Position numbers and translations under genes: made by a program | The notes under the pieces: model-generated | Databases searched by the model: none | Seen by the model: only the letters and a program-made list of their open reading frames with translations | Told to the model about the DNA's origin: nothing | From: Natronococcus sp. A-GB7 | GTDB lineage: Archaea; Halobacteriota; Halobacteria; Halobacteriales; Natrialbaceae | Assembly: GCF_029688865.1 (NCBI RefSeq) | Contig: NZ_JARUKV010000021.1 | Span: 1 to 64,000 of the forward strand | Length of the DNA stretch: 64,000 bases | Reading direction: 5' to 3' | In this document: piece after piece, positions 23,947 through 53,863 of the stretch | How positions within the stretch are numbered: position 1 is the stretch's first letter | Layout of the letters: each line of letters starts with the position of its first letter

Positions 23947-23997
23947 TGCAGTACCCTGTCCCTTCCAACCGGACTAAAATAAAGGTATGGAGATCGG

Positions 23998-24009
23998 TCG
24001 CGGATGTAA
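23998..24009 (+). repeat. Origin box half-site
   Basis: The 12-mer tcgcggatgtaa matches the inner half of the two perfect origin boxes at 24122 and 24298 but lacks the C-string. It lies 50 bp from the orc1 start and could let Orc1 regulate its own gene. Confidence 0.5.
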
Positions 24010-24121
24010 ACCAAGCGCGTGAGTGTCTCTATACCGCATCTAAAGGCCGCCCACTCGATCCGACCGATATCGCCGGCCTCGCGCTTGTGAACGGGGCGGA
24101 GGCGTGGGAACCTCCGACGGG

Positions 24122-24142
24122 CACCCCCCTCGCGGATGTAAC
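24122..24142 (+). repeat. Origin recognition box 1
   Basis: The 21 bp consist of a C-string (cacccccct), cgcgg and a core atgtaac. It is identical to bases 24298-24318. The long C-string is the 'G-string' element of archaeal ORBs seen from the other strand. Confidence 0.8.
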
Positions 24143-24297
24143 GGGTTCCGAGCCCCGCTACCCTGCAGGAACCTCCGGCCGCCTTCTCGGCCCGGAAGGG
24201 AAGAGGGGTCCCGGAAATCAGCATTGGCCGTCTAAGTGGTCGAGGGCAGCGTTATTGCCGGTCTCTGTTTCTGTCAACCGATTCGTGGGAGGACACA

Positions 24298-24336
24298 CAC
24301 CCCCCTCGCGGATGTAACGCCGAACGGGTGGGGGGT
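24298..24336 (+). repeat. Composite origin recognition box 2
   Basis: The left half (24298-24318) is a perfect copy of box 1. The shared gtaac core then continues into a second half on the other strand sense (24314-24336, gtaacgccgaacgggtgggg...), ending in its own G-string. The result is a two-sided site with a C-string on one side and a G-string on the other. It is mirrored by the composite box at 24421-24465. Confidence 0.75.
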
Positions 24337-24385
24337 CTCGAGCTGAGGGCGGAAATTCGACGGTTTCTATCGCTGAGAATACACA

Positions 24386-24409
24386 TTTACAACCGCGACG
24401 GAGGTGTGT
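24386..24409 (-). repeat. Origin recognition box 3 (degenerate)
   Basis: Reads tttacaaccgcgacggaggt followed by gtgt. It matches box 1 in inverse orientation with a few substitutions in the core and the G-string. It lies between the two composite boxes. Confidence 0.6.
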
Positions 24410-24420
24410 AGCCGATCAGA

Positions 24421-24465
24421 ACCCCCCCACACCTGTACGGCGTTACAAACGCGAAGGGGGTGTGT
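24421..24465 (-). repeat. Composite origin recognition box 4
   Basis: The right half (24442-24465, gttacaaacgcgaaggggg then tgtgt) is an inverted near-copy of box 1. The left half (24421-24446) is an inverted near-copy of the right half of box 2. Box 2 and box 4 therefore form a large inverted repeat of about 40 bp around an 84-bp spacer. Confidence 0.75.
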
Positions 24466-24637
24466 CCCCTCGGAACGGAACGCTCGACCCGGGTGAACTG
24501 GCTCGAGACGGTCGCAACCGTCGAAGAAGGAAAGGAGTGAACGGACGGAGGAAGTTCTCTCACGGTCGAGAACGATCACAGACGTCGGTTAGCAGTAGAG
24601 ACGGCAAGTCGAACGACGTTCGGGAGTTGGCCTCGGC

Positions 24638-24838
24638 GTATTACTACTACTAGACTAGTTCTTCTTACTAGACTAGTTATCTCTTCTCCTCCACCCAACA
24701 ACCTATACACCTATTCTACCTATTGTAACCATTCTATCTATTGGACAAGTTCTACAACCTACACCTATCTATACTATCGTAGAAATCCTCCAATCCTCCT
24801 CTATTCACCCCTCCGAACACCTCTATTCGCCCCTCCGA
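24638..24838. other. AT-rich, strand-asymmetric duplex unwinding region
   Basis: About 200 bp very low in G on the plus strand and rich in short ctat/ttct words, in sharp contrast to the GC-rich surroundings. The 12-mer actagactagtt occurs twice, at 24649-24660 and 24667-24678, 18 bp apart. Position next to the origin boxes and composition suit a DNA unwinding element. Confidence 0.75.
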
Positions 24839-25077
24839 TGACGTCGCTCACCGAGAGAAACACCTTCTCGTGACGACGCCGCCAGGCCGACTCGCTCTCG
24901 CTCCCACTCGAGCGCTCCCCCTCGAGTCAGCTTCCGGCTCGAGACGCGTCCGGGATCAGTCGACTTTTGCGAGCGGCCTCGCTACCGACGGTATGAACCG
25001 CCGACTCCAGTCTCGCCCTCGAGTCGACGCTCGCACTCGAGTACGCCGAAACAGCTTCCGCCGTCGACGGCCGAACC

Positions 25078-25860
25078 ATGACTGAACCGATCGAAGCGAC
25101 CACGGACGACCCGAACGCGACCTCCCCTGACCGAACGCCGCCATCGGTCGCCATCGTCGACGCGAAGACGCCGGGCAACGTCGGTACCATCGCCCGCGCA
25201 ATGAAGAACTTCGGATTCGAGGATCTCCTGCTGGTCGATCCCCCGGAGCTCGACCCCGACGGCGAGGCGTACGGGTTCGCGGGACAGGCTCGAGAGGATA
25301 TCCTTCCGAACGCGACCGAGCTCTCGTTCGACGAGCTCGCCGAGAGCCACCATACGATCGGCTGTACCGCGGTCACGAACGAGGACGACCGCAGCCACAT
25401 GCGCTACCCCTACTCGACGCCGGCCGACCTGGCCGAGCGACTGCCGACCGTCGAGGCGCCGACGGCACTGGTCTTCGGCCGCGAGCGGGTCGGCCTCACC
25501 AACGAGGAACTCGCGCGGATCGACGAGATCTGTGCGATCCCCGCGAGCGAGGATTATCCCGTGTTGAACCTCGGTCAGGCCGCGACGGTGACGCTGTACG
25601 AGCTTCGCAACCTCACGCTTCCCGCCGACGGCACGCAGCTGCCTAACCTCGAACGCACCCGAGCGCCGGAGCCCACCCTCGATCGACTCTACGACCAGTG
25701 GGGCGCCCTGCTCGAGGAGCTCAACCATCCCGACGAGAAGCGCGACAAGACGATGCGAATGCTCCGGCGAGTGTTCGGTCGCGCGGATCTGACCGAACGC
25801 GAGGCGAACACGCTGCTCGGGGTTCTCCGCAGAGCGACGGAGCGCCCTGCCGAGGACTGA
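25078..25860 (+). CDS. trmJ: TrmJ-type SPOUT RNA methyltransferase
   Basis: This 260-residue knot-fold methyltransferase of the SpoU/TrmJ class is likely to 2'-O-methylate tRNA (position 32 in characterised TrmJ). Motif 1 is TPGNVGTIARAMKNFG, motif 2 ALVFGRERVGLTNEEL, and motif 3 IPASEDYPVLNLGQAATV, the SAM-binding knot. The C-terminal helical tail (about 205-255) is typical of TrmJ dimers. It lies just right of the origin. Specificity for tRNA rather than rRNA is inferred from the family. Confidence 0.9.
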   Translation: MTEPIEATTDDPNATSPDRTPPSVAIVDAKTPGNVGTIARAMKNFGFEDLLLVDPPELDPDGEAYGFAGQAREDILPNATELSFDELAESHHTIGCTAVTNEDDRSHMRYPYSTPADLAERLPTVEAPTALVFGRERVGLTNEELARIDEICAIPASEDYPVLNLGQAATVTLYELRNLTLPADGTQLPNLERTRAPEPTLDRLYDQWGALLEELNHPDEKRDKTMRMLRRVFGRADLTEREANTLLGVLRRATERPAED

Positions 25861-53200: not shown

Positions 53201-53863
53201 GCATCCGACGGTCGGATCCGGGCTGACGCTCGAGCAAGGGAGTCGGAGAACTTCGGTAGACGGCTCGAGAGTGGTCGCCGTCGACCGATCTCGCCGGCGT
53301 ACGCACACCCGACCGCTATTTCGCTTCGGTCGCCGTCGACCCTCCGGAAGGCGAGGTAGCGGACGTCCTGCGGGGGTCATCGGGTTACCGCGGATCGGCC
53401 ACTACGCTCGGGTCGAGTTGCATCCTCGAGGGGGGTCGGCGAACCGTTCGGATCGACGAGCACTGGAAGGGGTCCCGCCCGAGAGATCCTCGGACCGAGG
53501 CGTCCCGGTCGCGGACGGTCTCGGCTCTCGGAAACCACGAGTCGGCTGGTTGCTTCTCGTTAGATCGATGGTGCGTCTGAGTGGGTCGACGCCGAAGGTC
53601 GACGGGTCGCCGTCACCTCGGGGGCCGTCGGCCGGGAGCTCGAAGGCTCGAGAGACGCCCGTCACGTCGAACTCCGTGGGGCGTTTTCGCGTTCGATCGG
53701 GACTCGGCCGACCAGTTTCTCGGAAGCCGGGCGACTGCTCTCGAACAAATAAACCATATGCCGATATACGAAATTCCGGGGTCGATTTCAGCGGTCGAGA
53801 TCGGAGATTCGGCCAGAGCAGACGCTCTCGAGCCGAGTATCGATCGCTTCGAGAACGAGAGAG
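53201..53863. other. Non-coding gap downstream of the recombinase
   Basis: About 660 bp without a credible gene. The open frames are basic and Arg/Ser-rich. The last 120 bp contain an AT-rich patch (aacaaataaaccatatgccgat, near 53745) with a short acidic frame (MPIYEIPGSISAVEIGDSARAD, from 53758) that runs into the HisG-like gene on the other strand and is more likely chance. Confidence 0.5.

Follow-up and report, generated by a model that had tools for sequence, protein, structure and literature searches.

Four ORBs lie between an orc/cdc6 gene on the minus strand and a TrmJ gene on the plus strand in the window analysed here, a 64-kb stretch of Natronococcus sp. A-GB7 DNA (Table 1). The product of the orc gene scores 410 bits against TIGR02928, and the gene shows 96-100% identity to four named Natronococcus loci. 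The genes adjoining the origin region encode TrmJ and a dihydropteroate synthase, and an Rfam scan of the window gave no hits. As is typical of an orc/cdc6-linked archaeal origin, an orc/cdc6 gene adjoins inverted ORBs that carry G-strings.

The conservation of these features was followed in 49 loci, comprising the window and 48 relatives from the Natrialbaceae. The 48 relatives were taken from 61 loci, 13 of which (L064-L076), all at no more than 46% identity, were left out. The 49 loci are mutually related, and the counts reported below are therefore not counts of independent events.

Table 1. Features of the orc/cdc6-trmJ region, in coordinates of the 64-kb window
Feature	Position	Strand	Remarks
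orc1/cdc6-family initiator gene, 409 aa	22717..23946	-	AAA+, lid, winged helix; Pfam Cdc6_lid, Cdc6_C
TATA-like element TTTAT, putative orc promoter	23979..23983	-	26 or 27 bp from mini-ORB start in 49/49 loci
Promoter mini-ORB TTACATCCGCGA without G-string (half-site of the initial annotation)	23998..24009	-	putative operator
Box 1, ORB without G-rich inner arm	24122..24142	-	PWM 36.6
Box 2, ORB of inverted pair, G-string outward	24298..24318	-	PWM 36.6
Inner G-rich arm of box 2, GGGTGGGGGG, gap-facing	24326..24335	+	position matches elements III/IV of PMC3936714
Gap between inner arms, contains box 3	24336..24421	.	putative helicase-loading interval
Box 3, degenerate ORB	24386..24406	+	PWM 25.7
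Inner G-rich arm of box 4, top strand CCCCCCCACACC, gap-facing	24422..24433	-	
Box 4, ORB of inverted pair, G-string outward	24442..24462	+	PWM 36.0
One-sided AT-rich block with CTAG cluster	24640..24840	.	CTAG at 24650, 24655, 24668, 24673
TrmJ-family RNA methyltransferase gene, intergene boundary	25078..25860	+	TIGR00050 176.8 bits, cut-off 167.15

The ORB boxes and the promoter mini-ORB

A gapless weight matrix, for which 99 strict sites of the window and its 48 relatives were used, found four sites scoring above 11 in the 64-kb window, and these are boxes 1 to 4; the next best site, at 53417, reached 10.9. On their outer side, boxes 1, 2 and 4 carry TTACANNCGCGA followed by a G-string, while the G-string of box 3 is degenerate. 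Much of what the initial annotation of this DNA had described at the boxes was borne out. The exact repeat which it reported for box 1 extends over 22 nt (24122-24143 and 24298-24319), and boxes 2 and 4 are indeed inverted near-copies, forming a 47-nt inverted repeat (24289-24335 and 24425-24471) that matches at 39 of its 47 positions, compared with a maximum of 34/47 in 200 dinucleotide shuffles of 23947-25077. The degenerate box that it had placed between them was likewise recovered by the matrix.

The inverted pair of boxes 4 and 2, searched for at 100-140 bp only, was present in all 49 loci, with a core-to-core distance of 115-126 bp: 124 bp in 24 loci, 123 bp in ten, 122 bp in five, 126 bp in four, and 125, 121 and 115 bp in two loci each. 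A box-1-like site was found in 46/49 loci and a box-3 site, for which the search covered 48-62 bp only, in 36/49; its distance from box 4 was 54 bp in 29 of these. The repeats are real and conserved and stand far above chance, and the locus looks like an orc/cdc6-linked origin.

The half-site reported close to the orc start was also found (TCGCGGATGTAA at 23998-24009); it lies 52-63 bp before the start. This promoter mini-ORB is the most constant element of the locus: the exact TTACANNCGCGA occurs in 49/49 loci, in none of which is it accompanied by a G-string, and the TTTAT element starts 26 bp (46/49) or 27 bp (3/49) from the start of the mini-ORB. Upstream of 20 orthologs from other families, found in 19 genomes, the mini-ORB is exact in 12 cases and has at most one mismatch in 15, and it is located 23-28 bp from a TATA-like word. 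In L125 and L127, the ORBs read TTACAGCGGCGA and the promoter site reads TTACAGCGGCGG, as if the promoter site and the initiator had changed together.

Since the mini-ORB is invariant and stands at a fixed distance from a TATA-like word in 49/49 loci, it is probably an autoregulatory operator, and autoregulation of Orc would be the simplest reading of its presence there. Orc bound at this mini-ORB would aim its AAA+ domain at the TATA box. No earlier report of such autoregulation by an archaeal initiator was found among the literature matches listed; Orc1-2 of Sulfolobus, a non-initiator, has been described as binding its own promoter (PMC9738581).

G-rich arms facing the gap

The inner sides of boxes 2 and 4 carry an additional element. 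Read towards the ORB, a C-run of at least four is found on the inner side of box 2 in 44/49 loci and of box 4 in 37/49, as opposed to 7/46 at box 1 and 5/36 at box 3; the thresholds for the C-run, and for the C10 value used below, were chosen after inspecting the arms. Several columns of the arm are well conserved, reaching 1.9 bits at box 2 and 1.8 bits at box 4 (genus-weighted).

These arms had been taken in the initial annotation for recognition halves, one on either side of a shared core. The inner side does possess a G-run, but it is devoid of a second mini-ORB. Indeed, CGCGA, which is invariant in the mini-ORB, occurs within the first 14 nt of only 1/49 box-4 arms and 0/49 box-2 arms, and in-register matches to the mini-ORB amount to 0.59 and 0.47 of 6 in the arms, compared with 1.47 and 1.82 after shuffling. 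The inner arm as an inverted ORB half was rejected. Furthermore, the distance between G-run and core is mostly 7 nt at box 2 (25/49) and 11 nt at box 4 (24/49), while a single frame of the gapless matrix fits the outer G-string. A single ORB with an extra, gap-facing G-rich arm, and not a two-sided box, is the best reading of boxes 2 and 4.

Conservation of the second half, which had been proposed as a test of the two-sided reading, was thus observed, but what is conserved is a G-rich arm and not a recognition half. The suggestion that these boxes differ from the usual single ORB holds only in part, as a G-rich inverted repeat has already been described at oriC1 (PMC3936714). At oriC1 of Haloarcula hispanica, this repeat lies just inside the ORBs and acts as an enhancer, and the outward G-strings are needed (PMC3936714). 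The excerpts of PMC3936714, PMC5333045 and PMC4010727 describe the G-rich repeat for oriC1 only, and no statement on such a repeat at origins beyond oriC1 was found among the literature matches listed.

The association of arms with gap-flanking ORBs extends beyond the window. A 10-nt stretch containing at least seven C counted as an arm if it fell within the 32 nt that adjoin an ORB on its inner side. Across eight origins of this genome, the ORBs of which differ, an arm is present at 13/16 gap-flanking ORBs and at 0/23 others (Fisher p ~7e-8, a descriptive value as the threshold was set post hoc). For the other origins, the ORB patterns were composed manually, and the window pair, since it encloses box 3, was likewise assigned manually. 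Inverted pairs less than 100 bp apart, of which there were two (in L002 and L004), were scored among the others, and the scoring left out L009 (repeats, ORB unclear) and L010-L014 (no ORB recognised). Within this genome, the L007-type origin has no arm and the L004-type origin has one of two.

When the same threshold was applied to oriC1 of 20 other genomes, 13 of which have a recognisable pair, an arm was found at 19/28 gap-flanking ORBs and 4/35 others. L002-type origins elsewhere displayed no arm enrichment, with 3/12 gap-flanking ORBs compared to 13/41 others; this set comprised nine loci, five with a pair and three without an ORB, and the regex counted some ORBs twice. When the six L002-type loci with ORBs were relisted under a single regex, L080, L082 and L096 each had one gap-facing site with a C10 of 8, and L082 had this value at another site as well; no site of L086, L089 or L090 exceeded 7. 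L003-type loci yielded one pair among five, with an arm at 1/2 as opposed to 1/7. In ten window-type orthologs from genus g40 (probably Haloferax), the box-2 equivalent often keeps its C-arm by eye; the box-4 equivalent in the same ten orthologs, also by eye, is without one. The arm rule is common, not universal.

Initiator family, chromosomal position and CTAG cluster

The label oriC1, which the locus had been given in the initial annotation, was not upheld. The oriC1 of this genome is on another contig (C23), beside the universal Orc1. The 548-aa Orc1 paralog encoded there passes the equivalog NF001625 (ORC1-type replication protein) with 653.8 bits, whereas the window Orc, at 318 bits, falls under the cut-off of 501, and this 548-aa protein is present in 59/59 class genomes and 120/121 family genomes. 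Upstream of its gene are inverted CCAGTTGAAACGAAGGGG ORBs with G-rich inner arms. The window ORB, on the other hand, reads GTTACANNCGCGANGGGGG, and the classical oriC1 ORB with GAAACG is absent from the window origin. The C23 neighbourhood contains a P-loop ORF (GTPase-like by eye), OapC and a DNA polymerase B-subunit domain, together with an S26 signal-peptidase hit of 21.7 that is narrowly under the cut-off of 22.9. This agrees with the surroundings of oriC1, for which genes of a GTP-binding protein, a signal peptidase and a DNA polymerase are given (Fig. 2 legend, PMC4010727), a context that does not surround the window origin. The window origin belongs to a different initiator family, its Orc being a paralog and not the universal haloarchaeal Orc1.

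Several other Orc paralogs of this genome were also compared. As universal initiator, L002 (25/59 class genomes), L003 (22/59, most at 56-58% identity), L004 (5/59), L006 (14/59) and L007 (16/59) were each rejected, as was the window Orc itself (86/292 genomes at E 1e-150). L013 is near universal (58/59 class genomes), and no ORB-like repeat was seen by eye in the 1.5 kb upstream of it. These counts include this genome and use a threshold set per search; L005, L009-L012 and L014 lay outside the comparison.

At E 1e-150 or better, which corresponds to an identity of at least 81% within the family and 64-76% outside it, a window-type Orc is found in 58/75 sampled genomes of its own family and in 28/217 other genomes, from three families. 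In a 116-genome sample, the remaining matched genomes have best matches of 47-53% identity. The window contig is only 88.8 kb long, and the separation from oriC1 was consequently measured in relatives and not in this genome. On the 22 contigs of at least 3 Mb, the distance between the window-type orc and the oriC1 orc amounts to 0.28-0.50 of the contig (mean 0.44), and on 20 of these 22 to 0.40-0.50. This set derives from 25 contigs with both orc genes, three of which (G020, G057 and G087) were excluded for being under 3 Mb. On G264, two hits to the oriC1 orc lie close to the contig ends, and use of the other hit (0.391 instead of 0.400) would give 19/22. Such near-opposite placement could be kept by synteny, and it is support rather than proof. 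The GC skew of one chromosome (G028, 20 windows of 20 kb) was noisy and displayed no clear turn at either origin.

Homologs of the window Orc are also borne on plasmids, in Haladaptatus (72%), Haloferax larsenii (70%) and Haloprofundus (64%); inside the family, three of the records that hold one are listed as plasmids too. The top identities outside the family, 75-76%, are located on contigs of 3.0-3.6 Mb and on one of 1.1 Mb. Capture from a plasmid is a published idea for such origins (PMC4010727, PMC4441112), and it is possible for the window origin. The plasmid homologs, the GC skew without a clear turn and the failures of the arm rule (L002-type origins elsewhere, and L007) were counted against the explanation that is preferred below.

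The AT-rich stretch was correctly described as one-sided: AT content is 0.59 at 24640-24840 compared with 0.48 between the boxes. Over the 49 loci, the gap has an AT content of 0.49-0.51 and the boxes one of 0.34-0.36. The 40-bp window of lowest stability, sought between the orc start and a point 400 bp to the outside of box 4, falls on the AT-rich side in 44/49. This position of the most AT-rich DNA outside the ORB pair, unlike the textbook layout, was also counted against the preferred explanation.

CTAG is depleted 11-fold in the window, with 18 occurrences in 64 kb versus 203 expected from base composition; at 200-250 bp to the outside of box 4, however, its density rises to 40 per kb. Between 50 and 400 bp outside box 4, at least two CTAG are present in 45/49 loci, at least four in 39/49 and none in 4/49. 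The total over the 49 loci is 257, whereas 50 dinucleotide shuffles averaged 81 and never exceeded 96, and none of 15 other palindromes tested rose above its own shuffle maximum. Background stretches (20 of 20 kb) hold a maximum of 1-2 CTAG per 200 bp, and one of six other stretches, L143, reaches five. At the oriC1 of this genome, seven CTAG lie between the ORBs; the L004-type origin has its CTAG cluster between the ORBs as well, and 8/20 oriC1 regions of other genomes have at least four CTAG in 200 bp. In the g40 orthologs, at least two CTAG lie outside the box-4 equivalent in 10/10 examined (13 matched), and the pair itself also encloses one or two, at +15 and near +53.

Clusters of CTAG upstream of haloarchaeal orc/cdc6 genes were linked in 2016 to an orphan m4C methyltransferase (PMC4752239); the motif is given as CATG in the body text and as CTAG in the figure legend of that report, and is cited as CTAG by PMC5867850, where the role of the cluster is questioned for H. 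volcanii. In this genome there are three N6_N4_Mtase matches, the best of which, a 352-aa protein at C34, is a candidate only. The novelty of the CTAG cluster is in its position alone, outside the pair here and between the ORBs at oriC1.

Proposed mechanism and competing readings

The combined features make it likely that the locus is a second chromosomal origin with its own Orc paralog, equipped with single ORBs, enhancer arms, an operator, and a CTAG element for control or unwinding. The locus is probably active as an origin. Boxes 2 and 4 would each bind one Orc in a fixed polarity, with the winged helix on GTTACANNCGCGA and the AAA+/ISM on the outward G-string, and MCM would be loaded into the gap between them as in Sulfolobus, where a single Orc1 is described as occupying each ORB with this polarity and MCM as being recruited between inverted ORBs (PMC12141716). 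The gap-facing G-arms may form a separate enhancer that raises efficiency, as at H. hispanica oriC1, and box 1 and the degenerate box 3 may be additional sites. Orc on the promoter mini-ORB would repress its own gene and thereby limit Orc supply. The CTAG block could act as a methylation-dependent gate on re-initiation, or as an unwinding element that opens first. We propose more tentatively, as a possibility and no stronger, that haloarchaeal initiators recognise sites of two grades: that a mini-ORB alone, 26-27 bp ahead of the TATA box, serves as operator to switch off the initiator gene, that a mini-ORB with outward G-string and gap-facing arm distinguishes the single helicase-loading pair of ORBs, and that the arm code is shared across origins whose ORBs and initiators are unrelated. 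If this is true, the arm would tell where loading takes place and the ORB which initiator does it.

Other readings of the same features were weighed. The initial annotation had suggested that Orc1 is fixed in head-to-head pairs; in such composite boxes, two Orc would face each other over a shared GTTAC core, comparable to Orc1-1 and Orc1-3 on Sulfolobus oriC2. A G-run is indeed present on both sides and the inverted repeat spans both, and the Sulfolobus oriC2 element has two sites and binds a heterodimer (PMC5333045, PMC9738581). The inner arm, however, contains no mini-ORB (CGCGA in 1/98 arms, matches below those of shuffled arms), the G-run is placed unequally at the two boxes while the outer G-string stays in one frame, and box 1, with an identical mini-ORB, is mostly armless, all of which renders head-to-head pairs very unlikely. 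It is improbable, too, that the locus is a captured plasmid-type origin which is dormant on the chromosome, and whose ORBs persist by controlling the orc gene. Plasmid-borne homologs inside and outside the family would fit such a history, and dormant origins are documented in Haloferax (PMC4595724), but the highest identities outside the family are found on contigs of megabase size, and a locus nearly opposite oriC1 has retained the inverted pair with its spacing as well as the two arms.

As to the inner arms, G-richness is conserved more than exact sequence or distance, and arms recur at origins that differ in ORBs and initiators. Both observations would be expected if the arms act via DNA structure, be it a G-quadruplex, G-tract rigidity or the exclusion of chromatin proteins, and not through a protein reader; the well-conserved arm columns suggest that there is a reader, and we consider a purely structural role rather doubtful. 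It is similarly doubtful, if conceivable, that the AT-rich CTAG block is the true unwinding element and that the origin opens one-sidedly, like bacterial oriC. That the least stable 40-bp window mostly falls there would agree with this, as would the CTAG outside the box-4 equivalent in all ten g40 orthologs examined. In oriC1 and the L004-type origin, the CTAG cluster lies between the ORBs, and such a cluster may therefore mark where the origin opens. Against it, Sulfolobus recruits MCM between inverted ORBs (PMC12141716) and the gap here is of similar length, the g40 orthologs have CTAG inside the pair also, and the block may instead be a trmJ leader or a methylation-controlled element.

The preferred reading, a second origin with single ORBs and enhancer arms, would turn a presumed oriC1 into a second origin that much of the family keeps almost opposite oriC1, and this label bears on how multi-origin chromosomes are built and balanced. 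It would also extend the G-rich enhancer arm from oriC1 to origins of the same genome with unrelated ORBs, the other ORBs of which serve as internal negative controls. Finally, the mini-ORB would represent a simple, invariant operator that could allow an archaeal initiator to keep its own supply in check.

Among known systems, the closest likeness in layout is to H. hispanica oriC1, with its inverted ORBs, outward G-strings, inner G-rich inverted repeat and an orc/cdc6 gene beside them (PMC3936714); in the window, by contrast, the AT-rich CTAG block lies outside the ORBs and not between them, and the neighbouring genes are others. The window origin also has another initiator paralog, and its mini-ORB is GTTACANNCGCGA and not the GAAACGA type seen on C23. 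It resembles the orc/cdc6-adjacent origin families of haloarchaea in having its own orc paralog, a family-specific ORB and a G-string (PMC3528665, where the criterion for oriCa or oriCb is an Orc at least 80% identical to family members). As in PMC4752239, CTAG is clustered upstream of orc/cdc6 in a genome that otherwise avoids it; here the cluster is placed relative to the ORBs. The ORB3-DUE-ORB2 arrangement of Sulfolobus oriC1 differs in having an AT-rich DUE between the ORBs and an extra ucm motif, and inner G-arms are not described in the excerpt of PMC12141716. It shares with the window origin the inverted, single, polar ORBs, over a similar span (130 bp in Sulfolobus).

CTAG cluster and promoter element at the window origin

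CTAG is scarce genome-wide, yet it is clustered in the AT-rich block of the window, and at least two copies occur in the equivalent block of 45 of the 49 loci (the window and 48 Natrialbaceae relatives carrying the same origin type). This clustering recalls that of GATC at the oriC of E. coli. The N6_N4-type methyltransferase encoded on contig C34 of the source genome is a candidate for the CTAG enzyme. The distance from the orc-promoter mini-ORB to a TATA-like element is fixed in all 49 loci.

Features of the window and of the source genome (G000)
Feature	Location	Details
AT-rich block, CTAG cluster	window 24640-24840	to one side of the ORBs; CTAG at 24650, 24655, 24668, 24673
Mini-ORB without G-string	window 23998-24009	in orc promoter; exact copy in 49/49 loci
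oriC1 candidate	L097 8900-10400 (G000:C23)	classical ORBs and inner G-rich arms
orc-linked origin	L004 844-1300 (G000:C1)	6 CTAG between ORBs; one inner G-rich arm
Orc paralog L013	G000:C4:72477-73496	58/59 class genomes
N6_N4-type DNA methyltransferase	L185 1249-2307 (G000:C34)	352 aa

Other Orc-linked loci of the source genome

The true oriC1 of the source genome is likely the candidate on contig C23, where seven CTAG sites lie inside ~60 bp and an additional ORB immediately precedes the orc1 start codon. With the cut-off applied, 5 of 59 genomes of the class contain the orc of the C1 origin. For the near-universal paralog L013, inspection by eye of the 1.5 kb upstream revealed no ORB-like repeat, and a non-origin role is possible by analogy with Sulfolobus Orc1-2.

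Window-type ORBs in genus g40

The upstream regions compared from genus g40 (L130-L133, L136-L139, L093 and L094), belong to the window-type ORB family and carry more ORBs on the orc side. At their box-4 equivalent, the G-arm is replaced by a similar non-G sequence, which ends in GTAGCC or GTAGCT.
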